Positions 18,701 to 32,157 of a stretch of DNA of 64,000 nt are shown here, piece after piece. Source of the DNA: Devosia sp. 66-14 (lineage in GTDB: Bacteria > Pseudomonadota > Alphaproteobacteria > Rhizobiales > Devosiaceae); the NCBI GenBank assembly GCA_001899085.1, contig MKVB01000001.1, forward strand, positions 530,785-594,784, written 5' to 3'. The first letter of the stretch is position 1. Each line of letters begins with the position of its first letter. Made by a program: the position numbers and the translations under genes. The notes under the pieces were generated by a model, which made no database searches, was not told the DNA's origin, and worked only from the letters and a program-made list of their open reading frames with translations.

Positions 18701-19471
18701 CTAGCCTTGCCGATTGGCATGGACCTTCATCGCGCCCGACAGGTACTGGGCGAACCCCGGCTCGATCGCCTCATAGCGGGCGATGAAATCCGGATGCTGG
18801 AGATAGAGGTCGGCGAGCCCGGCATAGGCCTCGGGCGGGCATGGCCTGCCCCACATCTGCGCGACCCAGGCGCGATGGCGGGCCAATAGCGGATCGAGGC
18901 TGGGCGAGCCGATCGGCACGCCGCGCCGCAGCCCTTCGGCCAATCCCTGCTCCATATCGTGCAGTTCCTGATTGAGGTGCTGCTTTTCGGCTTCCGACAG
19001 GCTCTCGTACTTGCGCTTGCTGAGCGCGATGCGGTCCGGCATATCGCCGCCATACTGCTCCACCAGCCAGGCCTCGTACTCGGCCGGCTTGTCGGGCGAG
19101 ATGCCCTTGTACAAATCCGCGTTTCTCATCGCGCGTTCTCCTTCAAGACTGGCGATCGTGCGGTCGATCGTCCTGACGAGTTGGGCATAGCGCTTGGCCT
19201 CCTCGCTCAGCCGGTCACGCTGCTGGCGCAGCGCCCTCAGCCGGTCGAAACCAGGGGCATCTAGGATGGCGCCGATCTCCGCGAGGGGGATGCCGAGTTC
19301 CCGATGCAGCAGGATCTGCTGCAACCGCAGCAATTCCTCCTGGCCGTAGTGGCGATAGCGGTTCTGCCCGGTGAACGCCGGCTTCAACAGGCCGATCTGG
19401 TCGTAATGGTGCAGCGTCCGGACCGAAACGCCGGAAACCCTCGCAACCTCTGTAACCGTCAGTGTTTTCAT
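18701..19471 (-). CDS. MerR family regulator with TipAS-like domain
   Basis: A 256-residue activator-type regulator. The N-terminal winged HTH is LTVTEVARVSGVSVRTLHHYDQIGLLKPA, then the wing and RLQQILLHRELGIPLAEIGAIL (residues 1-70), followed by a coiled-coil dimerisation helix (about 75-115) and a C-terminal TipAS antibiotic-recognition-like domain with EYEAWLVEQYG and a WGRPCPPEAYAGLADLYLQHPDFIARYE block. TipA-type proteins bind thiopeptides and related drugs; the ligand here is unknown. The second Met of MMKTL is taken as start. Confidence 0.88.
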   Translation of the reverse strand: MKTLTVTEVARVSGVSVRTLHHYDQIGLLKPAFTGQNRYRHYGQEELLRLQQILLHRELGIPLAEIGAILDAPGFDRLRALRQQRDRLSEEAKRYAQLVRTIDRTIASLEGERAMRNADLYKGISPDKPAEYEAWLVEQYGGDMPDRIALSKRKYESLSEAEKQHLNQELHDMEQGLAEGLRRGVPIGSPSLDPLLARHRAWVAQMWGRPCPPEAYAGLADLYLQHPDFIARYEAIEPGFAQYLSGAMKVHANRQG

Positions 19472-19653
19472 CACACGCGTTCTCCGCGGGATACGGGATA
19501 GTCCCTGACGCTACGTGAGGGTCAATATCGATTTGCGCAGAAGCTGCGACAGCGGGTTTTACACCACGTCAACCAGGCCCCCGGCTATCGCCCGCAAATG
19601 TGGAAACTCGGTATTTCGTCCGCCGTTTCTGCCTCGCAGACTGGGAGTGCTTT

Positions 19654-20853: not shown

Positions 20854-21101
20854 CCGTCACTCCCTCCTGACCTGAAACCGGCGCCGATCCGAAGCGGCGG
20901 AGCCGACAACGCAAGCCGGCGAAACCCAATCGGACAACCCTGCCCTGCACTCCAACCCTTTGATGTCGGCTGCAATGAAGTCAAGGCCGCAACCGTGTTG
21001 CCGCATCGCTGCGGGCTCCCGATTGGAGGACAAGGATCGGAGCGTTCCGATCGGGTCATCGAGGCTACATCGCTCTCCAACAAGCCTCCTGGAGAGACAG
21101 C

Positions 21102-21602
21102 ATGCCTCGTATCGGCTACGCGCCCGGCGCTTTCGACCTGTTTCATGTCGGGCACCTCAACCTGCTTCGGCAGGCCAGATCGCATTGCGACTTTCTGATC
21201 GCCGGCGTGGCATCCGACGAGATCCTCAGCGAGCACAAAGGCGTCAGCCCGGTAGTGCCGCTCGCCGAACGCCTCGCCATCGTCGGCAGCATCCGCGCCG
21301 TCGATCGCGCCTATCCGGCAGTCACCGCGGACAAGCTGGCGATCTGGCGGGACCTGCAGTTCGACGTGCTGTTCAAGGGCGATGACTGGCGGGGCACCGA
21401 AAAGGGCGATCGGCTGGAGCGCGCCTTCGCCGCGGTCGGCGTCGAGGTCATCTACTTCCCCTATACCCTCGCCACCTCGAGCACTGCTCTCCGGCGCACC
21501 CTGCGCAATATCGACGCCATGGCCGAGCGCGGCACTCCCACCGTGCATGCCTCGCTCCCGCATGCCCTCTTCCAGCTGTCGCCGATCGCATCGAGCAACT
21601 GA
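21102..21602 (+). CDS. cytidylyltransferase-like nucleotidyltransferase
   Basis: A 166-residue protein of the TagD/glycerol-3-phosphate cytidylyltransferase type. The signature HxGH is in YAPGAFDLFHVGHLNLLRQA near residues 6-25; the second nucleotide motif RTTGISTT is replaced by TLATSSTALRRTL near 125-137; the region DVLFKGDDWRGTEKG lies near 89-103. It probably transfers a CMP or AMP unit to a phosphorylated substrate that is not evident here. AGGAG-like sequence (CTGGAGAGA) precedes the ATG. The long C-terminal tail after residue 140 is unusual. Confidence 0.85.
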   Translation: MPRIGYAPGAFDLFHVGHLNLLRQARSHCDFLIAGVASDEILSEHKGVSPVVPLAERLAIVGSIRAVDRAYPAVTADKLAIWRDLQFDVLFKGDDWRGTEKGDRLERAFAAVGVEVIYFPYTLATSSTALRRTLRNIDAMAERGTPTVHASLPHALFQLSPIASSN

Positions 21603-21687
21603 AGCGGTGGCGCGTCATGTTCGTGATTTCCGGGTCGCCGCGCCGGCGCCGAAGTGGCATCCCTTTCGAAACCACCTGTTGCGATCG

Positions 21688-22800
21688 ATGACCATGATGA
21701 CTGCGCACGCCCTGACGGCAAACCCGAACCACCCGCCAAACGTTGCTGCCGACCCCAGGTGGCAGCGCATCGTCGCGCGGGACCGCACCGCCGATGGCGC
21801 GTTCTGGTATTCCGTGCTCACCACCGGCGTCTATTGCCGTCCCTCATGTCCTTCGCGCACTGCCAACCCCAGGAATGTCCGCATCCATGCCTCGCCAGCC
21901 GACGCCCGGCGGGCCGGCTATCGCCCATGCAAGCGCTGCAACCCGGATGGCATGTCGGTCGAGGGCGAGAACGCCGTCGTCATCGAGATGGCGTGCCGGC
22001 TGATCGAGGCCAGCGAGGAAGCTCCGTCCTTGGGTGCCCTTGCCGAGTCCGCCGGCCTCAGTCCCAGCTACTTCCATCGGCTGTTCAAGGCGACGACCGG
22101 CGTGACGCCCAAGCAGTATGCCGCGGCGCACCGCGCGGAAAAGCTGCGGGAGAGCGTACGCACCGGCGCCAGCGTCACGGCAGCGATGTACGACGCCGGC
22201 TTCAACTCCAGCGGACGCTTCTACGAGAACGTGGGCGGCATCCTCGGCATGACGCCGACCCAGTACCGCCACGGCGGCGCCAACGAGGAGATCCGCTTTG
22301 CGGTCGGCCAGTGTTCCCTCGGCGAAATCCTCGTGGCCTCGAGCGCCAGGGGCGTGGCGGCTATCCTGCTGGGTGACGATCCCGACCGGCTGCTGCGTGA
22401 TCTCCAGGATCGCTTCCCCATGGCGAGGCTGATCGGCGCCGACGCCTCCTATGAAGCCCTGATCGCCCAGGTGGTGGGTTTCGTCGAGCAGCCCGCCATC
22501 GGGCTCAACCTGCCGCTCGACGTCCGCGGTACCGCGTTCCAGCAACGCGTGTGGCAGGCGCTGCGCGAAATCCCGGTTGGCCGGACAGTGTCCTACGCCG
22601 ATATAGCCCGGCAGATCGGTCGCCCGTCGGCGGTCCGGGCGGTCGCCGTAGCCTGCGCGGCCAATCGGCTGGCGGTCGCAATTCCCTGCCACCGCGTCGT
22701 CAGGACCGACGGTTCGCTCTCGGGCTACGCTTGGGGTGTCGAGCGCAAACGCGACCTGATCGCACGCGAGGCCGTATCGACGCTGGAAGCAGCGTCATGA
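21688..22800 (+). CDS. ada: bifunctional Ada: methylphosphotriester-sensing regulator and O6-methylguanine-DNA methyltransferase
   Basis: A 370-residue protein with the full Ada layout. Residues 20-100: the zinc domain with the sensor cysteine in VYCRPSCPSR and the pair CKRC. Residues 100-195: an AraC-type HTH (LGALAESAGLSPSYFHRLFKATTGVTPKQYAAAHR). Residues 200-365: the MGMT domain with RGTAFQQRVWQALREIPVGRTVSYADIARQIG and active-site LAVAIPCHRVVRTDG. It senses methyl phosphotriesters in DNA, is methylated and then activates the regulon. The ATG at MTMMTAH was chosen; a long upstream in-frame reading overlaps the previous gene. It heads a translationally coupled series (ada, alkA, unknown, alkB). 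Confidence 0.95.
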   Translation: MTMMTAHALTANPNHPPNVAADPRWQRIVARDRTADGAFWYSVLTTGVYCRPSCPSRTANPRNVRIHASPADARRAGYRPCKRCNPDGMSVEGENAVVIEMACRLIEASEEAPSLGALAESAGLSPSYFHRLFKATTGVTPKQYAAAHRAEKLRESVRTGASVTAAMYDAGFNSSGRFYENVGGILGMTPTQYRHGGANEEIRFAVGQCSLGEILVASSARGVAAILLGDDPDRLLRDLQDRFPMARLIGADASYEALIAQVVGFVEQPAIGLNLPLDVRGTAFQQRVWQALREIPVGRTVSYADIARQIGRPSAVRAVAVACAANRLAVAIPCHRVVRTDGSLSGYAWGVERKRDLIAREAVSTLEAAS

Positions 22801-23438
22801 GCGAGCCGGGCCGCTACACCCGGGCCGAGGCGTTCCTCAGGGACCTCGATGCAGATTGGGCCCGGCTCGTCGCGCTGGTCGGGCCTTGCCGCCACGATCC
22901 CAAGGCGGCGCGCGAGCCCTATGAGGCGCTGGTTCGCGCCATCGCTTACCAGCAGTTGACCGCCAAGGCCGGTGACGCGATTATCGGCAAGCTCAAGCAC
23001 CAGCTTGCGGCCGACGATTTCCCTTCGGCTGCCGACATCGCAACGGCATCCTTCGAAGTGCTGCGCGCCTGCGGCTTTTCCGCAACCAAGGTGGCGACCG
23101 TCAAAGCCATTGCCGAAGGGGCGCTCACCGGGCTGGTGCCGCCGCGCGCCGTCGCGGCAACGATGTCGGACGAGGAGTTGATCGAGCGCATCTCGGCGAT
23201 CAAGGGGATTGGCCGTTGGACCGTCGAGATGCTGCTGATGTACACGCTTGAGCGCGAGGACGTGCTGCCGGCCGACGATTTCGGCGTACGCGAGGGCTAT
23301 CGAGCCCTGAAGGCTCTGGCCGCTCCCCCCACGCCGCGGCAATTGCGAGAGCTCGGCGCCGCCTGGTCGCCGCATCGAACCGTCGCATCCTGGTATTTGT
23401 GGCGCATGCCGCGCGAGCGCGGCAACGTGCTGGCATGA
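22797..23438 (+). CDS. alkA: DNA-3-methyladenine glycosylase (AlkA-type)
   Basis: A 213-residue HhH-GPD glycosylase that removes alkylated purines. The helix-hairpin-helix is ISAIKGIGRWTVEMLLMYTLEREDVLPADDFGVREGYR, near residues 139-176, with the catalytic Asp in PADDFGV. The start ATG lies within the ada stop codon (ATGA), so the two are translationally coupled. It is shorter than E. coli AlkA, lacking that protein's first domain, as is usual for many alphaproteobacterial members. Confidence 0.9.
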   Translation: MSEPGRYTRAEAFLRDLDADWARLVALVGPCRHDPKAAREPYEALVRAIAYQQLTAKAGDAIIGKLKHQLAADDFPSAADIATASFEVLRACGFSATKVATVKAIAEGALTGLVPPRAVAATMSDEELIERISAIKGIGRWTVEMLLMYTLEREDVLPADDFGVREGYRALKALAAPPTPRQLRELGAAWSPHRTVASWYLWRMPRERGNVLA

Positions 23439-24073
23439 GCATCCCCAGCCCCCTGCAGAACCGCGTGACCCCGTTCGGTGCGATCGTCGCCATTCGCCAG
23501 CGCGGCATGCTGACCGGGAACCGGGGCATCATTCACGACCCGGCGACGAGGACGCTGCTCAAGCGGCGCTGGACCAGCAAAGCCTGGCTCGCCTGCGCAT
23601 GCGAGTTTCGGGGCCGGCGTCGCGAGGTGATGGCGACGCGCAGCTGGACCGAGCTGTTCTTCCTCGACGAGGCAACTGCACTGGCGGCCGGCCACCGCCC
23701 GTGCTTCTTCTGTCGCCGCGAGGAGGCCGAAGCGTTCCGCGCCGCCTGGGGCCGCGCCGCCGGTGCGGTGCCATCGGCTCGGGAGATCGATGAGGTGCTG
23801 CACCGTGAACGCCTGTCAGGCGGTCACAAGCGCGTGCACCCGCTGCCCTCAACACCCGATGAGCTTCCGAACGGGACGATGGTCGTCGCGGCGGACCGCG
23901 CCTACACGATCCTCGACGGGCTCGGCTATCCCTGGGACATCGGCGGCTACGGCGAGCCCATCGACCCGCAGCACGCCCAGGGGCTGCTGACACCGCCTTC
24001 GACCGTTGCCGCCCTCCGCGCCGGCTACCGCCCGCGGCTCCACCCCACGCTGAACCCGCGAGCCGGCTCATGA
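23435..24073 (+). CDS. unknown protein embedded in the alkylation-repair operon
   Basis: A 212-residue soluble protein without a recognised family. It starts MSIPSPLQNRVTPFGAIVAI within the alkA stop (ATGA) and its own end overlaps alkB in the same way, so it is a core member of the operon. It contains a CACEFRGRRREVM segment and a CFFCRREEAEAFR pair of cysteines, suggesting a metal site, plus HKRVHPLP and GYPWDIGGYGEP motifs. The fixed position between alkA and alkB argues for a role in alkylation damage, perhaps recognition or reversal, but no activity can be assigned from sequence. Confidence 0.75.
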   Translation: MSIPSPLQNRVTPFGAIVAIRQRGMLTGNRGIIHDPATRTLLKRRWTSKAWLACACEFRGRRREVMATRSWTELFFLDEATALAAGHRPCFFCRREEAEAFRAAWGRAAGAVPSAREIDEVLHRERLSGGHKRVHPLPSTPDELPNGTMVVAADRAYTILDGLGYPWDIGGYGEPIDPQHAQGLLTPPSTVAALRAGYRPRLHPTLNPRAGS

Positions 24074-24720
24074 TGGATCTGCTCGACGGCATCCCCCATA
24101 CTCCCGGCACGCATGAACCGCTGGGCACCGGCGCGGTGTTGCTGCGCGGCTTCGCCCTGCCCTTCGAGCCCCGCTTGCTTGCCGCGCTGCAGGCGATCGT
24201 GGCCGAAGCGCCGTTCCGGCACATGGTGACGCCCAGCGGCCACGCGATGTCGGTTGCGATGACCAATTGCGGCGCTGCCGGCTGGGTGACGGACCGCACG
24301 GGCTATCGCTACGACACACGCGATCCCCTCAGCGGTCGAACCTGGCCGGCACTGCCGGAGGCTTTTCTGGCGCTGGCGCGAGCGGCCGCAGCCGAGGCCG
24401 GCTACGAGGACTTCACTCCCGACGCCTGCCTGATCAACCGCTACGAGCCGGGCGCGCGGCTCTCCCTGCACCAGGACCGTGACGAACGAAACCTCGCCCA
24501 CCCGATCGTCTCGGTGTCGCTGGGCCTTCCCGCGACGTTCCAGTTCGGGGGCCTCAAGCGAGCCGACCCGGTGCGCAGGCATGCCCTTCGGCACGGTGAC
24601 GTCGCCGTCTGGGGCGGCCCCTCGCGGCTGTGCTTTCACGGCGTTCCGAGCCTCAAGGACGGCACGCACGAGAGCCTCGGCCGCATGCGCATCAACCTGA
24701 CCTTTCGGGGAGCGCTCTGA
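24070..24720 (+). CDS. alkB: AlkB-type DNA/RNA oxidative demethylase
   Basis: An Fe(II)/2-oxoglutarate dioxygenase that repairs 1-methyladenine and 3-methylcytosine. The 216-residue protein shows HQDRDERN (HxD) near residues 138-145, the substrate segment LINRYEPGARLSLHQD around it, the SVSLGLPATFQFGG strand near 150-163, and the distal metal histidine in FHGVPSLKDG plus the RMRINLTFR arginine pair that binds 2OG. The MM start sits on the overlap with the upstream unknown gene. Confidence 0.94.
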   Translation: MMDLLDGIPHTPGTHEPLGTGAVLLRGFALPFEPRLLAALQAIVAEAPFRHMVTPSGHAMSVAMTNCGAAGWVTDRTGYRYDTRDPLSGRTWPALPEAFLALARAAAAEAGYEDFTPDACLINRYEPGARLSLHQDRDERNLAHPIVSVSLGLPATFQFGGLKRADPVRRHALRHGDVAVWGGPSRLCFHGVPSLKDGTHESLGRMRINLTFRGAL

Positions 24721-24978
24721 ATGCTCTCCCGGTCACCTGGCGGCAAGTCCCGTGCGACGAGGCCTCCCGCACAGGCACCCCGCCGGGACTGGCCCGATGC
24801 GATTGCCCGGCAGCGCTATGACGACCCGGCCAGGTCCCTGGTGATGCAGCGCATCGGCGAACTGGTTCGGGATGGAATCGCCGAGTGGCGTCTGCTCGGC
24901 AACCACGACGTCGAGCTACGCCTCGCGACCGGCGAAGTCTTCCTGCTGTCGAGCCGAACGATCACGCGCATCGGCTGA
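24721..24978 (+). CDS. small conserved hypothetical at the end of the alkB operon
   Basis: An 85-residue basic protein whose ATG follows the alkB stop directly. The N-terminal 30 residues are Arg/Pro-rich; the C-terminal part has a strand pattern IAEWRLLGNHDVELRLATGEVFLLSSRTITRIG. No family is recognised; it might bind nucleic acid, given the basic tail. It ends the ada-led operon; the next unit has its own promoter element 21 bp downstream. Confidence 0.55.
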   Translation: MLSRSPGGKSRATRPPAQAPRRDWPDAIARQRYDDPARSLVMQRIGELVRDGIAEWRLLGNHDVELRLATGEVFLLSSRTITRIG

Positions 24979-24998
24979 TGCGCCCTCCCGCGCTGTTG

Positions 24999-25012
24999 GA
25001 TTTGACAGCAAG
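24999..25012 (+). promoter_or_regulatory. shared 14-bp promoter-proximal element, copy 1
   Basis: GATTTGACAGCAAG is identical to the sequence at 26413-26426. Each copy lies 63-67 bp before the start of an ogt paralogue. It contains TTGACA (-35-like) and GCAA, which is part of the classical Ada box pattern AAT-N6-GCAA. A shared Ada-dependent or LexA-independent promoter is inferred. Confidence 0.5.
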
Positions 25013-25078
25013 GAGCGGAGTGAGGCGCCGGTCGGCGCCTTCTAGGCTGAGATCACGACAACCAAGGAGATCCAGCAA

Positions 25079-25642
25079 ATGCAGCTCATTGCCCACCAGA
25101 CAGCCGCGAGACTGCTGTCACCCAAGCCACCCAGGGCGTCCGATCGGAACATCACCTATGCGATGGCGATGACCGACCTGGGCCGGGTACTGGTCGCCCG
25201 CAGTGACGCCGGCATCTGCGCCATCCTGTTCGGCGACAGCGATGACGATCTTGCCGCCGATCTCAAGACGCGTTTCGCCGACACTCCGCTGAAGGCCGAC
25301 AATGCCGCTCTGCGCTCCGAACTGAGCCAGGTGCTGAACTTCATCGGCGCGCCATCCGACAAGCTCGATTTCGCCGTCGACATGCGCGGCACGCCGTTCC
25401 AGTGCCGCGTCTGGGCCGCGCTGCGCGCCATCCCGGTGGGCGTCACCATCACCTACGCCGAACTGGCGAAGCGCATCGGCGCGCCACGGGCCGTGCGCGC
25501 CGTCGCCGGCGCCTGTGCCGCGAACCCCGTCGCGCTGGCCATTCCCTGTCATCGGGTGGTCCGCAGCGATGGCAGGCTGGCCGGCTATCGCTGGGGCCTC
25601 GAGCGCAAGCGCGCCCTGCGCGACAGGGAGGCCCAGCGATGA
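25079..25642 (+). CDS. ogt: methylated-DNA--protein-cysteine methyltransferase (Ogt paralogue)
   Basis: A 187-residue MGMT. The N-terminal domain runs from AMTDLGRVLVARSDAGICAILFG; the C-terminal domain has RGTPFQCRVWAALRAIPVGVTITYAELAKRIGAPRAVRAVAGACAANPVALAIPCHRVVRSDG with the active-site Cys in PCHRV, then the YRWGLERKRAL helix. It is closest in layout to the Ada C-terminal domain, and the N-terminal AKA-type leader is short. A purine-rich AAGGAG lies about 12 bases upstream. It is coupled to the following 2OG oxygenase by an ATGA overlap. Confidence 0.92.
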   Translation: MQLIAHQTAARLLSPKPPRASDRNITYAMAMTDLGRVLVARSDAGICAILFGDSDDDLAADLKTRFADTPLKADNAALRSELSQVLNFIGAPSDKLDFAVDMRGTPFQCRVWAALRAIPVGVTITYAELAKRIGAPRAVRAVAGACAANPVALAIPCHRVVRSDGRLAGYRWGLERKRALRDREAQR

Positions 25643-26388
25643 GCCTCCCCAGCAGCGCCTCTCCCACCGCCAACAATTTCGAAGCCGCCGACCTCCGTGT
25701 CAGCCGCTACGACTGGCCGACCCTGTCGCAGGACCTCAGCACCCATGGCTGCGCCGTGCTGAACAACCTGCTCTCGGTCGAAGAAAGCATGGAGGCGGCG
25801 GAACTCTACCTCGACAAGCAGCGCTTCCGCAGCCACATCACCATGGCTCGCCACGGCTTTGGCCGCGGCGAGTACCAGTATTTCAGCTACCCGCTGCCCG
25901 GCATGGTGGCCGGCCTGCGCAAGGCGCTCTATCCGCGCCTCGCCACCGTCGCCAACAAATGGCAAGAGCAGTTGCGGCTCGACCAGCGCTATCCCGCCGA
26001 TCACGCGGCATTCCTCGAGCAATGCCACGCACAGGGGCAGACCCGACCGACGCCGCTGCTGCTGCAATATGTGGAGGGTGACTTCAACTGCCTGCACCAG
26101 GATCTCTATGGCGATCTTGCCTTTCCCATCCAGGTGGCAATCCTGCTCTCCGAACCCGACCGCGACTTCACCGGCGGCGAGTTCGTGCTGACCGAGCAGC
26201 GTCCTCGCATGCAGAGCCGGGTGGAGGTGGTGCCGTTGCGTCAGGGCGATGCAGTCGCCTTCGCGGTGCATAATCGCTCCGTCGCCGGCAGCAAGGGCCA
26301 CTACCGCGTCAACCTCAGGCATGGCGTCAGCCGCATCCGCTCCGGCCTGCGGCATACGCTGGGCATCATCTTCCACGATGGCCGGTAG
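25639..26388 (+). CDS. 2OG-Fe(II) oxygenase in the alkylation-repair block
   Basis: A 249-residue dioxygenase. The metal site HxD is in NCLHQDLYGD near residues 152-161, with the distal histidine in FAVHNRSVAGSKGHYRVNLRHGVSRIRSG near 211-240, followed by the 2OG-binding arginine. A GGEFVLTEQRPRMQSR strand lies between. The ATG overlaps the ogt stop. Proteins of this type recur next to ada genes in alphaproteobacteria, but their substrate is unsettled; a DNA- or protein-repair hydroxylase is plausible. It is not an AlkB orthologue by sequence layout. Confidence 0.8.
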   Translation: MSLPSSASPTANNFEAADLRVSRYDWPTLSQDLSTHGCAVLNNLLSVEESMEAAELYLDKQRFRSHITMARHGFGRGEYQYFSYPLPGMVAGLRKALYPRLATVANKWQEQLRLDQRYPADHAAFLEQCHAQGQTRPTPLLLQYVEGDFNCLHQDLYGDLAFPIQVAILLSEPDRDFTGGEFVLTEQRPRMQSRVEVVPLRQGDAVAFAVHNRSVAGSKGHYRVNLRHGVSRIRSGLRHTLGIIFHDGR

Positions 26389-26412
26389 GCTCGCTCGCGG
26401 GTCGGCGCTGGC

Positions 26413-26426
26413 GATTTGACAGCAAG
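26413..26426 (+). promoter_or_regulatory. shared 14-bp promoter-proximal element, copy 2
   Basis: Identical to the element at 24999-25012 and 63 bp before the second ogt paralogue's start. Bases beyond the 14 diverge, so conservation looks functional rather than the trace of a simple duplication. Confidence 0.5.
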
Positions 26427-26488
26427 AACTGGAGCGCCCGGCGAACCGCTCTCAGCTAGCGTCGGGCCTTCAGCCAAAGGAGGCCCAC

Positions 26489-27103
26489 ATGTCAGAGATC
26501 ATCCGCTACTCCTGGGGCACGACCACGCTGGGTGACGTGCTGGTTGCCGTCTCCGACCGCGGCATCGTCGCCATCGACTTCGGCACCGGGCATGCTGCCG
26601 CCGAACGGGCGCTGCGCGAGCGGTTCGCCGCGACGGAGGTCCTCGAAGCGGACAAGCAGCTGGCCGACACGCTCGATCGGGTGATCCAGGCGATCGAGCA
26701 TCCGGGGATCGACCCGCAGCTGCCGCTCGACCTGCGCGGCACGCCGTACCAGGTCACGGTCTGGTCGATGCTGCGCGCGATCCCGCCCGGCGAAACGACC
26801 AATTACGGCGCGCTCGCCTTGCAACTCGGCACGCGCGATGCGCGGGACGTGACCGCGGCGATCGCCAGCAACCCGATCGCGGTGCTCGTCCCCTGTCATC
26901 GGGTCATCAGGAAGGACGGCAGCCTTTCCGGCTATCGCTGGGGTCAGAGACGCAAGCGCGAACTGCTGCTGCGAGAGCAGCGGGCCGGTTTCCAATCCAG
27001 CTCGGCTGACACGCCGCTGCTCCGGACGGCGACAGCGCTATGCGGCATGGATCGCCGACCTGAGTGGCAATCACATGCCGTCCGGCAGCGCCAGCTCGAC
27101 TGA
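26489..27103 (+). CDS. ogt: methylated-DNA--protein-cysteine methyltransferase (third stand-alone Ogt)
   Basis: A 204-residue protein. The MGMT domain (residues 1-165) has RGTPYQVTVWSMLRAIPPGETTNYGALALQLG, then AVLVPCHRVIRKDGSLSGYRWGQRRKRELL, with the active-site Cys in PCHRV. After the normal end of the fold there are about 40 extra residues (AGFQSSSADTPLLRTATALCGMDRRPEWQ...) unlike other members, suggesting read-through into former non-coding sequence or a small 3' frameshift. AAAGGAGG precedes the ATG by six bases. It has its own copy of the shared element. Confidence 0.9.
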   Translation: MSEIIRYSWGTTTLGDVLVAVSDRGIVAIDFGTGHAAAERALRERFAATEVLEADKQLADTLDRVIQAIEHPGIDPQLPLDLRGTPYQVTVWSMLRAIPPGETTNYGALALQLGTRDARDVTAAIASNPIAVLVPCHRVIRKDGSLSGYRWGQRRKRELLLREQRAGFQSSSADTPLLRTATALCGMDRRPEWQSHAVRQRQLD

Positions 27104-27127
27104 TCGATCGGCCGTCGCACCATTCGC

Positions 27128-27162
27128 GGCGGCCATTTGTCGGCGACAAGCAAATGACCGCC
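27128..27162 (+). terminator. hairpin after the third ogt
   Basis: GGCGG-C-CATTTG pairs with CAAATG-A-CCGCC (one mismatch) around an 11-base loop. It lies 25 bases after the stop and before the RiPP cluster. There is no T-run; it may be a weak terminator or an operator. Confidence 0.4.
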
Positions 27163-27337
27163 GTACCGTTGATGTTGCAAAGTGACATCGTTGTCGCGGA
27201 AGTCTAGGCGATCCGGTTTTGCACAGGTCGGTCCGCGCTTGTTCCAAATATTGTCGTCGGCCGGCTTCCGCACATCAAAAATTGCCGATACGGTCCATCA
27301 CAGGACGCGGTCAATCAATTCAGTCGGATCTCCTGCT

Positions 27338-28564
27338 GTGACAACTGAGCTATCAAACGCCCGAGGAACAGTTGCAGAACGTCAGGCCGACACTATTCCT
27401 CGACTTCTGATTGTTCCGCCGCGCCACAGCTCACCGTTGGTAGACGCGCAAGATCATCGGATCGCGCTTTCTCTCGTCACCGATGTTACGCTCAGCCTGT
27501 GCCGGAGCCGCCTCTACGAGGTCATCGCACCGCACTCGGCAATGAAGCTGACCAGCGGCCCAATCTGGGAAGAGATGCTCCCCGCCGATTACGTGGTCCT
27601 GACTGACGTCGTTCTTTGCCAGACCGGCCTGCCGGTTGCGCTGATGAGCATCGATGTTGTGGCGACGGCGCTTGGCCAGCGCGTTTACCGCGGTGAAGTC
27701 GAGTTGCGGTCCGGAGCGCTACAGAGCATCCATGACAGCTTCTGCGCCATCCTCGCCGACAAGATCTGCGGCGAGATCGGCGCCTATGAGCTGCGGAAAT
27801 ATCGGCGAACCGGCGCGGCGTCGGCATATGTCCACTACCTGATCGCCATGCAGAGACGCGATCGCAACGACCTGCCGTCCCTGCTCCGGGCGCAGAAATC
27901 CCTGGGCCGCGCCGTGCAGTTGTCGCCCGACTTCGTACCGGCCCTCGCCCAGTTGGCGCGCACCAAGACCCTCGAGTGGCTGGAACGCGGCAGCGCCGAC
28001 CGCACGCTGCTGCTGGAGGCGCGGCATCTGGCGCAGCGCGCCCACAGCTACGATGCCAATGACAGCGCCAGCCTGCGCGAACTCGGCCATGCGGCGCTCT
28101 ATCTGCACGATCTGGCCGGCGCGCGGGAGCATTTCGAGGCGGCGCACGAACTCGCCCCGAACCATGCCGACCTGCTCGTCGACCAGGCGGACGTCCTCAC
28201 CCACCTGTCGCGGCACGATGAAGCCGAGGCCAAGATATCGCGGGCGCTTTCCCTGAACCCGCTGGCGCCGGACGATTATTACTGGATCGCCGGCGCCGTC
28301 AGTTTCTTCAGGCGCGAGTACAGGCAGGCCCTGTCACGCCTGTCGGCAATGGAATCCCCCGGCCTGGCGCTGCGACTGATGGCAGCCTCGGCCGCGATGC
28401 TGAACGACAAGCAGGCGGCCGCGGAGTACCGCGAGCAGGCGCTGGCCCGCGATCCGGCATTCAGCGTCGACAAGTGGCAAAGCCTCTATCCGGCTCCCAA
28501 CCCGGATGACACGGCGCATTATCTCGACGCGTTGCTTTTGGCCGGCTTCCCGCGCGGGGCGTAA
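27338..28564 (+). CDS. TPR-repeat protein of the YcaO-TfuA cluster
   Basis: The first 120 residues resemble the TolB-like N-terminal domain seen in TPR proteins related to adenylate-cyclase/CadC families (PRLLIVPPRHSS, RIALSLVTDVTLSLCRSRLYEVIAPHS). The rest is a chain of helical TPR-type repeats (ADLLVDQADVLTHLSRHDEAEAKISRALSLNPLAPDDYYW and similar). No HTH or cyclase domain is present. The start is uncertain: the GTG chosen begins VTTELSNARG, but the frame is open to a GTG at 27182; the intervening sequence has poor codon use. The gene ends 54 bp before the candidate peptide gene and probably belongs to the same operon as a scaffold or regulator. Confidence 0.75.
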   Translation: MTTELSNARGTVAERQADTIPRLLIVPPRHSSPLVDAQDHRIALSLVTDVTLSLCRSRLYEVIAPHSAMKLTSGPIWEEMLPADYVVLTDVVLCQTGLPVALMSIDVVATALGQRVYRGEVELRSGALQSIHDSFCAILADKICGEIGAYELRKYRRTGAASAYVHYLIAMQRRDRNDLPSLLRAQKSLGRAVQLSPDFVPALAQLARTKTLEWLERGSADRTLLLEARHLAQRAHSYDANDSASLRELGHAALYLHDLAGAREHFEAAHELAPNHADLLVDQADVLTHLSRHDEAEAKISRALSLNPLAPDDYYWIAGAVSFFRREYRQALSRLSAMESPGLALRLMAASAAMLNDKQAAAEYREQALARDPAFSVDKWQSLYPAPNPDDTAHYLDALLLAGFPRGA

Positions 28565-28618
28565 ACCAAATATTAATTCGATTCTGGGCCTGCTGTGTTG
28601 TTCACAGGAGGACCTCAA

Positions 28619-28720
28619 TTGAACACTTCATCCGCTTCGTCGAAAGTTGCTACCGCAACCACCGTCAAGACTCTGCCGGCCCTGCCGCGCATTCCCAGCC
28701 GCAAGTTCTTCCGGCAGTAA
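28619..28720 (+). CDS. candidate RiPP precursor peptide
   Basis: A 33-residue peptide with a TTG start and a perfect AGGAGG seven bases upstream, ending three bases before the YcaO GTG. The N-terminal half is Ser/Thr-rich (NTSSASSKVATATT) and the C-terminal half basic and proline-rich (LPALPRIPSRKFFRQ). There is no cysteine, so classical thiazole formation is impossible. TfuA-partnered YcaO enzymes make backbone thioamides, which need no particular side chain. Position, ribosome site and size strongly suggest the substrate of the adjacent YcaO-TfuA pair; modified residues cannot be named. Confidence 0.7.
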   Translation: MNTSSASSKVATATTVKTLPALPRIPSRKFFRQ

Positions 28721-28723
28721 CCG

Positions 28724-29920
28724 GTGGGCGGCGCCGTCCCGACGCCGCCAAGCTGGTTTGAATATGGCGAACGCAATACACCGGCCGCACTGACCGTTGC
28801 ACGGCTGCGGCCGTACCTTGCTGCTCTTGGCATCACCCGCCTCGCCCGTCAGACCGGCCTCGATCGCATTGGGATTCCCTGTTTCTCAGCCATTCGGCCT
28901 GCCGGACTGACGCTCAGCGTCAGCCAGGGAAAAGGCCGCGACGATGCCGGCGCGATGGCATCGGCGCTGATGGAGGCTGCAGAGTTCGCCGTGGCCGAGC
29001 AATCGGAGGCTCCGTCGCGGGTTGCGACCGCCGAGACGCTCCGGCTCGCCGGCGAGACCTTCTATGACGCAGCGCGCCTGCTGCCGGCCGAGCATCCGCT
29101 GCCGACCGGTGCACCGATCCGCTGGCTCCGCGGCAGCTCCTGGCCCAGCCACGACGGCGTCTGGATCCCCCGCGATGCGCTGACCATCGGCGAACCAGCC
29201 ACCGACCTGCCGGAGGTCGGCCGCAGCACCAACGGCCTCGCCTCTGGCAACTCCACCGAGGAGGCGCTGTTTCACGCCATCTGCGAGTTGCTGGAGCGAG
29301 ACGCCACCTCGCTTTGGTCGCTCCTGCCTGATCCTCAGAGGCTGGCGACCGAGTTTTCCATCGACGTCGTGGATGACGCCGTGATCCAGGCTTTCGGCAG
29401 ACAGATCGCCGACGCCGACCTTGAGCTGCGGCTGTTCGACCAGACCACCGATCTCGGCGTCCCGTGCGTCATGGCGGTGATCAGCGAGCAAGGCTCCGGC
29501 AACGCCAGGCTGTTCGACATTGCCGCCGGTTATGGCTGCCACCCCACCGGCACCCGCGCCATCGGCCGCGCCATCACCGAGGCCGCCCAGACCAGGATCA
29601 CCAACATCGCCGGCGGCCGCGATGATTTCATGCCCGCCGAGTATTCCGAAGAGGTCGACGAGTCGGTCGCGTTCCTCGCAACGCCTGCTTCCAACCGTGG
29701 ACAGCCTCCCACCTGGCTTGCCCCCGATACGCCGCTGCCGGAAATGCTCGCGCTGCTGGCGCAGCGTATCGGCCCGACCGCCGGGATCGTCTGGAGCGAA
29801 CTGGGCGGCGCCCGCTATGGCATCTCCGTCGTACGCGCCTTGTCGGCAATGCTCGAAGACCGGGAGACCAACGTCAACTGGACGCCCGGGCCGCGCGCGC
29901 TGGCGGTGCTTGACCGATGA
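28724..29920 (+). CDS. YcaO-type cyclodehydratase/thioamidation enzyme
   Basis: A 398-residue YcaO. It has the ATP-binding signatures of the family: SQGKGRDDAGAMASALMEAAEFAVAE near residues 66-91, NGLASGNSTEEALFHAICELLERDA near 170-195, and EAAQTRITNIAGGRDD near 286-301. YcaO proteins activate peptide amide bonds with ATP. Paired with TfuA they catalyse thioamide formation, or azoline formation with other partners. The GTG three bases after the peptide's stop was chosen; the sequence downstream gives no better start. Its last codons overlap tfuA (ATGA). The C-terminus is not the PxPxP type of azoline-forming enzymes. Confidence 0.88.
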   Translation: MGGAVPTPPSWFEYGERNTPAALTVARLRPYLAALGITRLARQTGLDRIGIPCFSAIRPAGLTLSVSQGKGRDDAGAMASALMEAAEFAVAEQSEAPSRVATAETLRLAGETFYDAARLLPAEHPLPTGAPIRWLRGSSWPSHDGVWIPRDALTIGEPATDLPEVGRSTNGLASGNSTEEALFHAICELLERDATSLWSLLPDPQRLATEFSIDVVDDAVIQAFGRQIADADLELRLFDQTTDLGVPCVMAVISEQGSGNARLFDIAAGYGCHPTGTRAIGRAITEAAQTRITNIAGGRDDFMPAEYSEEVDESVAFLATPASNRGQPPTWLAPDTPLPEMLALLAQRIGPTAGIVWSELGGARYGISVVRALSAMLEDRETNVNWTPGPRALAVLDR

Positions 29921-30609
29921 GGGTGCTTTTCGTCGGACCGTCGCTATATGGCGAAACGCCGGACCTGGCCGGCCTCTCCGTCCGCTCTCCCGCGCGCCAG
30001 GGTGACGTCGCCCGGGCCGTGCTGGACGGCGCCGGCGCCATCGGCCTCATCGACGGGTTCTTCGATGCGGTGGCGGCGCCCTGGCACAAGGAGATTCTCT
30101 TCGCCCTCGATCGTGGCGTGACCATGCTCGGCGCGTCCTCGATGGGAGCGCTGCGCGCCGCCGAATGTGCCGCCTTCGGCATGATTCCGATCGGCGAGGT
30201 CGCCCGGCAATACTGCACCGGCGAGCTCGACGACGATGCCGCGGTGGCGATCTCCCACGGCCCGGAAGAGCTCGGCTATCCGCCACTGACTGAGCCACTG
30301 GTCAACGTACGGCCGACGCTCGATCGGTTGCGCAGCCTGCGGCTCATCTCCGAGCCCGAACAGCTGCGCATCTGGGACAGGGCCTGTCGGCTCTATTTCA
30401 AGGACCGCTCGATCGACGCATTGCTGCCCGCCGAGGAGCGGCCGGAGATCCTCGCCGCCTACCGCCGGCACCGGATCAACCGCAAGGCAGAAGATGCGCT
30501 GCTCTTGGTCGCCGAACTGAAGACCTGCAGCGCGTTGGCCACCCAGCACCCGGTCAAGCCGGAGCCGTCCTTCTTCTCGAGGCACATCCTTCCCGAAATG
30601 CTCGAATAG
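29917..30609 (+). CDS. tfuA: TfuA-like protein
   Basis: A 230-residue protein of the TfuA family, named after trifolitoxin production in Rhizobium. N-terminal VLFVGPSLYGETPDL, then GDVARAVLDGAGAIGLIDGFFDAVAAPWHKEILFALDRGVTMLGASSMGALRAAECAAFGM, which is the core family block, and a charged C-terminal region. TfuA proteins partner YcaO enzymes and are needed for backbone thioamidation, in part by recruiting the sulfur source. Start overlaps ycaO (ATGA). It is the last gene of the cluster and the last backbone gene before the island. Confidence 0.9.
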   Translation: MRVLFVGPSLYGETPDLAGLSVRSPARQGDVARAVLDGAGAIGLIDGFFDAVAAPWHKEILFALDRGVTMLGASSMGALRAAECAAFGMIPIGEVARQYCTGELDDDAAVAISHGPEELGYPPLTEPLVNVRPTLDRLRSLRLISEPEQLRIWDRACRLYFKDRSIDALLPAEERPEILAAYRRHRINRKAEDALLLVAELKTCSALATQHPVKPEPSFFSRHILPEMLE

Positions 30610-30704: not shown

Positions 30705-30762
30705 TGGTGCGGGCGGTGGGACTCGAACCCACATGGGGATACCCCCTCCGGATTTTAAGTCC
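30705..30762 (-). tRNA. 3' fragment of tRNA-Leu(UAA), att-site scar of an integrated island
   Basis: On the minus strand the sequence reads from GGACTTAAAATCC (anticodon arm, anticodon TAA) through a long variable arm and GTGGGTTCGAGTCCCAC (T arm) to the acceptor 3' strand ending in CCA. The 5' half (acceptor, D arm and first anticodon strand) is absent; unrelated AT-rich sequence abuts it at about 30762. Tyrosine-recombinase islands usually integrate in the 3' half of tRNA genes, leaving a partial copy at one end and a restored copy at the other. The restored gene is expected beyond the right edge. Not expected to be functional. Confidence 0.8.
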
Positions 30763-31234: not shown

Positions 31235-31567
31235 ATGAAGGTGTTCTATCCCCTTCGGTTCGAGGACGTGCCGGCGAGCGGCCCACATGAGGTCGGCACG
31301 CAGTATCGTGTCGCCTTCGGGCTGGAGCATTGGGGCGAAGGCGAAGCCGAGTACGTCTACAAGGTGCAGATGGTCTATGGCGGCCAGGTCTCCGGGCGTC
31401 GCAGCCCCTCCTTTCCGGAAGGAAGCGACGACCTCGAGCGGGTGCTCGACGCCCTGCAACGGGTCCGCAAGGGCGAGGGCCAGAAGAGCCGCGGCGCAGT
31501 GCATCCGGCCGGCCCGGACAAGGGTATTACGCCTTCGGAAGCCAAAGATCAGACGAGCGACATCTGA
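31235..31567 (+). CDS. hypothetical protein
   Basis: A 110-residue protein, MKVFYPLRFEDVPASGPHEVGTQYRVAFGLEHWGEGEAEYVYKVQMVYGG... in shape a small beta-rich domain followed by a basic, disordered tail (RKGEGQKSRG...). Not recognised. The TGATG junction with the next gene (one-base overlap) implies one operon. A set of CTATAG-type palindromic sites lies in its leader. Confidence 0.6.
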   Translation: MKVFYPLRFEDVPASGPHEVGTQYRVAFGLEHWGEGEAEYVYKVQMVYGGQVSGRRSPSFPEGSDDLERVLDALQRVRKGEGQKSRGAVHPAGPDKGITPSEAKDQTSDI

Positions 31568-32157
31568 TGCCACCATGGATTCCCTATGACAAGCTCCGGG
31601 ACTACCCCGCGACGCTGCGTGTTGCCCGGCATGAAGTCGGGCATTACTTGGCTGGCCGCCATTTCGGCTTCAAAATGGATGGCGTCACCTTGCAGGTAAG
31701 CCACACCGGCGACAACTACGGAACAAGCTCGATCACGCTGTCGAAACCGTTGAGGAAGATGCCCGAGGTGGAGCGATACCTCGAAGAACGAGTGGTCTGC
31801 CTGATGGCCGGTCTCGCCGGCGAGGTCGTTGATCTCGATGAGGTGAAGGACAGAGCCATCTACGAGCACGCCAAGCTAAACGCCTCGCAGGATTTCGCGA
31901 AGGTTCGCGAACTCATGCATCTCATTCGGAACATCCGGCATGCCAAGGATGCGCTCACAAAGGCAGGACCGCAGTTGAAGGCCATCGATGATGAGCTCAC
32001 GCAGCGGACGATCCAGTTCATCAATTCAGAGCGGGCCTTGCTCGATGAGCTAGCGCCGCTACTTGCGGACCAGATTACGGCCTGGGACCAACCTGTGTCC
32101 CTCTCTACCAAGGACCTCGCCAAAATCCCGTCGCTAAGGCGGCGTTTTCCGTCTTAG
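31567..32157 (+). CDS. putative zinc metallopeptidase-like protein (HEVGH motif)
   Basis: A 196-residue protein with a zincin signature ATLRVARHEVGHYLAGRHFGF near residues 20-40, similar to the HExGH site of M41/FtsH-type peptidase domains, and LMAGLAGEVVDLDEVKDRAIYEHAKLNASQDFAKVREL downstream, which resembles the region carrying the third ligand. No AAA domain or signal peptide is present. It could be a stand-alone M41-like peptidase of a mobile element. Coupled to the gene before it. Confidence 0.65.
   Translation: MPPWIPYDKLRDYPATLRVARHEVGHYLAGRHFGFKMDGVTLQVSHTGDNYGTSSITLSKPLRKMPEVERYLEERVVCLMAGLAGEVVDLDEVKDRAIYEHAKLNASQDFAKVRELMHLIRNIRHAKDALTKAGPQLKAIDDELTQRTIQFINSERALLDELAPLLADQITAWDQPVSLSTKDLAKIPSLRRRFPS

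Follow-up and report, generated by a model that had tools for sequence, protein, structure and literature searches.

Within a 64,000-nucleotide (nt) stretch of the Devosia sp. 66-14 genome, hereafter the window, we analysed a compact cassette of four genes lying in one direction and encoding a tetratricopeptide repeat (TPR) protein, a 33-codon peptide, a YcaO enzyme and its partner TfuA (Table 1). The first two genes are separated by 54 nt and the next two by 3 nt, while the last two overlap by 4 nt. An earlier annotation of the window (the original prediction) had named the same genes in the same order, which coordinates and Pfam matches bear out. Its description of overlaps or tiny gaps is right for genes two to four and wrong for the larger TPR-peptide gap, which contains a hairpin over the ribosome site. 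It had missed this hairpin, the origin of the TPR protein from regulators of the SARP type (Streptomyces antibiotic regulatory protein) and a second cluster in the same genome.

Table 1 Features of the cassette and its edge (window coordinates)
Feature	Position	Strand	Basis
TPR protein, 408 amino acids (aa)	27338..28564	+	GTG start, TAA stop; Pfam TPR matches
Hairpin with AGGAGG (28606-28611) and peptide TTG start in its 3' arm	28577..28623	+	Folding energy
Putative precursor peptide gene, 33 aa, MNTSSASSKVATATTVKTLPALPRIPSRKFFRQ	28619..28720	+	TTG start, TAA stop, AGGAGG in front
YcaO, ATP-dependent amide-activating enzyme	28724..29920	+	GTG start, TGA stop; PF02624 E 4e-52
TfuA, partner thought to deliver sulphide	29917..30609	+	ATG start, TAG stop; PF07812 E ~2e-37
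tRNA-Leu(TAA), 3' part; outside the cassette, marks its edge	30714..30762	-	Intact behind TfuA in two relatives

On sequence grounds, the cassette is probably a minimal operon for a thioamidated peptide, that is, a ribosomally synthesized and post-translationally modified peptide (RiPP). The best solved relative of YcaO is the archaeal MJ1094 (6pe3; E 3e-19), with LynD and TruD ranking behind, and the alignment covers the GKG, SA.MEA, TNGLASGN..EA, ERDA and AI.RA.TE.AQ.R blocks. Judged by these matches, the enzyme is nearest to the thioamide-forming branch, and because its nearest relative is an archaeal thioamidation enzyme, a backbone-thioamidated peptide is the best reading. TfuA matches the solved protein 6xp8 (E 5e-28), and a ThiS-family gene is present in the Devosia sp. 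66-14 genome. Membership in the TfuA-related thioamidated RiPPs is further indicated by the adjacency of ycaO and tfuA and by a putative precursor that co-occurs with the enzymes at all five loci of the window's clade.

This clade (clade A) comprises the window and three close loci (L030, L031 and L009), together with the more distant L010, whose YcaO is 63% identical; in the YcaO tree it is represented by four rows on a branch with support 100/100. Relatives in the genome collection include Devosia insulae DS-56, Devosia sp. Root413D1 and one Hyphomicrobiales metagenome-assembled genome (MAG). The window, L030, L031 and L009 all have a frame of 31-35 aa with TTG as start codon and AGGAGG in front; lengths differ by whole codons and the final 14 residues are identical. 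The L010 peptide, 63 aa long and starting with ATG, is unrelated in its N-terminal part yet ends in the same way, so that PRIPSRKFF is invariant in 5/5 peptides. The ratio of nonsynonymous to synonymous change (dN/dS) in the last 16 codons was 0.00-0.21 (six pairs among the four close loci) and 0.11-0.34 against L010; for the N-terminal part of the same six pairs it was 0.31-0.94. The C-terminal block is under amino-acid-level selection. Of 20,000 single-base shuffles of the TPR-YcaO gap, one produced an open reading frame (ORF) with 31 codons or more after an exact AGGAGG. By all these signs the peptide is a real gene, with conservation weighing more than the shuffle result.

A profile of the five peptides, searched against 136 Devosiaceae genomes, gave five strong matches (E at most 4e-17), all beside the enzymes; the next-best match (E 6e-4) contained an internal stop. 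Some match at E up to 1 occurred in 74 of these genomes, as expected because the model is so short. The original prediction had staked itself on the peptide being conserved together with the enzymes, and within the close clade it is, at every clade-A locus; outside clade A, the slot between the TPR gene and YcaO is filled by unlike peptides. The window peptide has no Pfam or NCBIfam match, and a search of solved chains found none for it at E up to 10. By eye, it carries neither an export signal nor a double-glycine site, and its C-terminal block is cationic and proline-rich.

By homology, the TPR protein corresponds to the last ~400 aa of SARP/BTAD-type proteins in related clusters. One of these is the second cluster of the same genome (L080; G000:C2:350371-352007, minus strand), with the order TPR(SARP-type)-peptide-YcaO-TfuA, a 653-aa BTAD-TPR protein and a 72-aa precursor of a larger group described below. 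According to Pfam, the BTAD/winged-helix DNA-binding half is absent from the TPR proteins of the window and L031; BTAD is present in 3/3 full-length relatives tested. The TPR frame spans 603-727 aa in 47/51 related loci, the exceptions being clade-A L077 and L078, L102 (two overlapping frames) and L121 (212 aa). A tblastn search with the first 300 aa of six relatives found nothing significant upstream of the clade-A genes beyond the retained half, bar a gapped L079-L030 alignment that reaches ~56 codons further upstream. Judged by homology, the window's clade has lost the SARP/BTAD DNA-binding half. Alignments between species show single-base indels in the DNA before the GTG, which makes the TPR start at 27338 likely; no clear ribosome site was seen before it by eye. 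The retained half has a dN/dS of 0.070-0.087 (six pairs, four orthologs), lower than that of the adjacent YcaO (0.12-0.21 in clade A). The corresponding half in the second cluster has 0.011-0.050, and constraint in clade A is therefore strong, yet somewhat weaker. Among conserved columns of the 47 rows outside clade A, three reach 80%, all of them kept in clade A, and none reaches 90%, which is too few to weigh.

The 54-nt gap in front of the peptide folds with AGGAGG and the start codon in the 3' arm of a hairpin (minimum free energy, -20.9 kcal/mol; z, -4.05). A like hairpin is found in all five clade-A loci, with the start codon of L010 covered in part; energies range from -19.6 to -30.2 kcal/mol and z values are -4.1, -3.2, -3.3, -7.1 and, in L010, -0.8. 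Pairing is retained in 84.5% of cells, compared with 34-48.5% when the partners are slid by 1-3 columns, although shuffling the 3' letters among sequences lowers it merely to 80.4% and 20/500 shuffles reach the observed value. Covariation was not above shuffles (93/500), and four pairs change on both sides but are matched in this by shuffles (159 and 93 of 500). We dropped compensatory change as proof, and because it does no better than shuffles, the case for the hairpin rests on conservation and energy. The window stretch folds better than its shuffles (p 0.010), with a ribosome site not less open than theirs (p 0.40).

Across 33 loci, we compared the fold of the stretch before the precursor with that of the same stretch after shuffling its upstream part. 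Folding was better (p 0.03 or less) at 12/16 loci with a TPR-precursor gap of at least 50 nt and at 1/17 with a shorter gap. The mean chance of an unpaired ribosome site was 0.21 and 0.62, respectively, with a Mann-Whitney p of 1.5e-6 that is too small because the loci are related and the short-gap stretches include TPR coding sequence. By the stricter measure of a site less open than in shuffles (0.05), 4/16 loci with the longer gap pass. The hairpin looks like a translational gate for the peptide. An RNA thermometer or riboswitch was also considered and set aside, with no Rfam match, including to ROSE-type thermometers, in the hairpin at E up to 1. In a distant cluster, L033 (G116; precursor start at 1304), a TTG start likewise lies inside a strong hairpin, so the arrangement is not confined to clade A.

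In the mechanism that we propose, TfuA would release sulphide from a thiocarboxylated carrier of the ThiS type, YcaO would activate a backbone amide with ATP, and oxygen would be swapped for sulphur in the peptide block LPALPRIPSRKFFRQ. The modified site may be the Pro23-Arg24 bond within PRIPSRKFF, a guess by analogy with the APR tripeptide of thiovarsolin, and trimming would fall to general peptidases, as has been suggested for that compound. Released from its DNA-binding part, the TPR half would most likely bind the precursor or product and steer modification or sense its level; its options are substrate handling, product sensing and the damping of a full-length SARP-type protein in trans. 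The hairpin would probably keep peptide synthesis low until opened.

Several observations weigh against the thioamidated-peptide reading or parts of it. YcaO scores 159.1 of 365 bits (E 1.5e-46) against TIGR03266, and TfuA 135.7 of 235.2 bits against NF033432. Both scores are below the curated cut-offs of these NCBIfam models, which are specific for McrA-glycine thioamidation proteins, and the reaction type is therefore assigned by homology. Typical RiPPs combine a conserved leader with a variable core; the window peptide has the reverse, a conserved C-terminal block and a varying N-terminal part. Its dN/dS values come from a counting method applied to so short a gene, with few changes. Hiding of the ribosome site beyond chance passes in one of the five clade-A loci (L009), and an AlphaFold2 model of the TPR protein from three close sequences reached a mean pLDDT of 57, too poor for a fold search or a ligand-binding test.

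The proposal has precedents in published systems. TfuA works with a ThiS-type carrier (PMC13063428). For thiovarsolin B, the varA-varY-varT genes, encoding precursor, YcaO and TfuA, suffice to yield a Pro-Arg thioamide; the cluster has no protease, its transporter is dispensable and release is attributed to host peptidases (PMC6511847). The VarA core and the window block both contain a P-R bond, whereas VarA is a repeated-core precursor accompanied by VarO and the C-terminal block of the window peptide is single and invariant, with a TPR protein in VarO's place. The window shares adjacent ycaO-tfuA genes and a nearby small precursor with the TfuA-related thioamidated RiPP clusters of Proteobacteria, which are common in Rhizobium and relatives (PMC8120280). 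It differs from them in its new precursor family, its bare cassette and a regulator-like partner without a DNA-binding half; the main text of that paper does not contain the terms TPR, tetratricopeptide or Devosia.

Related clusters are widespread. At E 1e-50 or better, 25/136 Devosiaceae genomes have a YcaO relative, and TfuA is found in 62/397 genomes of the order (75 matches in total). We examined 71 of these TfuA loci, leaving out two of the own genome, which were already known, and two on short G051 contigs. A homologous TPR protein lies at most 1.2 kb upstream on the same strand at 42/71; the other 29 comprise 18 with no TPR protein, six with one elsewhere in the stretch, four cut by a contig end and one with a distant YcaO. 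Nine Devosiaceae loci added by choice (80 in all) each have the TPR gene, giving 51 TPR loci. Of the 102 rows in a YcaO tree, 25 have no TPR match, and 18 of these group in one 25-row branch. Between the TPR gene and YcaO, 40/51 loci have a small ORF with a ribosome site, some of which look spurious, and 11/51 have none at the chosen threshold. Half of the precursors compared (17/34) share the leader MxKxVxxGxxGExxLWLVDLxxGTV...GVDLAVA, and some of them have an end that is repeated, for example GGFFEAS. No relationship of the clade-A peptide to the other precursor groups was detectable (best E, 0.09 in the set of 34; hhalign probabilities, 0.1-0.2), leaving common ancestry with them unsupported.

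The recurrence of TPR gene and small ORF around YcaO-TfuA at these loci, the BTAD half of the full-length relatives and of the 653-aa protein in the second cluster, and a dN/dS of the TPR half below that of YcaO in both clusters are also consistent with an intracellular signal. A thioamidated, protease-resistant peptide would be read by the TPR domain of SARP-type regulators, in the manner of an RRNPP receptor-pheromone pair of Gram-positive bacteria; in this clade, a receptor without its DNA-binding half would either be a sink or partner the second cluster's full-length SARP-type protein in trans. RRNPP pairs consist of a TPR receptor with a helix-turn-helix (HTH) or other effector domain and an exported short peptide. 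The likeness lies in a small peptide gene beside a TPR-protein gene, whereas the window adds a pair of backbone-modifying enzymes and the protein in this clade has no DNA-binding domain or HTH. AfsR is a SARP regulator with a TPR domain, and its SARP domain is inhibited by the NOD and TPR domains at its C terminus (PMC10936776); relatives of the window protein carry both BTAD and TPR, while the window protein is without the SARP half. However, the peptide's want of an export signal or double-glycine site speaks against signalling, and a cluster-situated SARP that merely activates its cluster would look identical. We regard the signal as unlikely. Extending it to a Gram-negative family of peptide-sensing systems would be bolder and rather unlikely: protease-proof thioamidated peptides would be read by SARP-type TPR domains of the same operon, the receptor of the window's clade, cut from DNA, would act on the peptide or the enzymes, and the hairpin would gate the amount of peptide.

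An antibacterial microcin, for instance a Pro/Arg-rich peptide acting inside other cells, would suit the cationic, proline-rich block, and other thioamidated RiPPs are bioactive (PMC8120280). We nevertheless consider this doubtful: neither the cassette nor the flanking ORFs assigned to a family include a transporter or immunity gene, the block is invariant and not diversifying, and no solved chain resembles the peptide. Least probable, and quite improbable in itself, is that YcaO and TfuA modify a cellular protein, as YcaO enzymes can with McrA (PMC6511847) and uL16 (PMC13063428), and that translation of YcaO is regulated by the small ORF as a leader; the 3 nt between peptide stop and YcaO start, because of which the two are probably translated in a coupled manner, would suit such a leader, but selection on the amino acids of the block and the longer precursors of related clusters, some with RiPP-core-like repeats, argue against it.

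Three further identities were rejected. For a defence system, none of three proteins had a PADLOC match, and for phage cargo, 50,697 phage records gave no match. For plasmid cargo, 295 plasmid records held a YcaO relative, every one below 60% identity.

For the thioamidated-peptide reading, the enzyme chemistry is expected; novelty lies in the family of the peptide, in a TPR protein that has lost its DNA-binding half and in the hairpin that covers the ribosome site. We found no description of the TPR/SARP-peptide-YcaO-TfuA family in the literature searched, which mostly excluded subscription papers and gives no proof of absence. The cassette would be a very small candidate thioamidation system of a Gram-negative bacterium, comprising a substrate of 33 aa, a pair of enzymes and a single accessory protein, and would be easy to rebuild in Escherichia coli. 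It also poses a question for many related clusters, namely the role of the TPR half, given that one clade sheds the DNA-binding half yet keeps the TPR part under strong selection.

Several observations concern other family members. In L122, L123 and L126, precursors with repeated ends (AAGGLFERSEG..., GGFFEAS...), likely repeated cores, lie between a long TPR protein and YcaO-TfuA. A second YcaO relative is present in 4/5 clade-A genomes, with the full regulator read for the own second cluster only. The own genome holds a third YcaO domain (L001; G000:C3:116639-117649) in a 767-codon frame, its best family match in the genome, with no TfuA match there. At L032, on MAG contig JAFKKL010000195.1, a YcaO that is 98% identical to that of the window from residue 143 is fused to an unrelated membrane-protein-like start and accompanied by a 100% identical TfuA; this fusion is probably an assembly chimera.

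The flanks of the cassette differ among relatives. Two of them, L170 (Devosia sp. Root413D1) and L171 (G014), have the same genes upstream and an intact tRNA-Leu(TAA) directly behind TfuA, whereas in the window 6.4 kb of additional DNA lies upstream, and downstream the tRNA gene is cut by foreign DNA. Between L173 (G005) and the 64-kb window, the four-gene stretch is all that is shared. Since these genes reappear in different surroundings, TPR-peptide-YcaO-TfuA is the unit kept together. Among ten window ORFs flanking the cassette, Pfam assigned families to six, with no transporter or peptidase among them, and none to the other four. One of those four lies behind the cut tRNA and, read in a longer frame at 31330-32157 (+), has an HEVGH motif and a sub-threshold Peptidase_M50 match (E 0.08); in L173, an AAA/Peptidase_M41 gene lies 1 kb behind TfuA on the opposite strand. 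The two proteins are weakly alike (E 0.003, one pair). Because neither L170 nor L171 has an HExxH ORF of at least 150 aa behind the cluster, these neighbours are not conserved parts, and both were rejected as a dedicated protease of the cassette. The earlier statement that no protease, transporter or immunity gene is visible thus stands for the conserved cassette, the protease-like genes nearby not being shared.

The ~6.4 kb at 20872-27241 that is absent from two relatives encodes an AlkB-like 2OG-Fe(II) oxygenase, two Ogt-type methyltransferases and an Oxygenase-NA gene, and is a DNA alkylation repair insert beside the cluster. On the other side, the DNA after the tRNA-Leu(TAA) fragment matches neither L170 nor L171 and is probably an island that inserted into the tRNA gene. 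Further upstream, at 18701-19474 (-), lies a MerR regulator with a TipAS antibiotic-recognition domain, which three relatives likewise keep close to the cluster. In other systems TipAS binds thiopeptides, and a link between this regulator and the cluster is possible.

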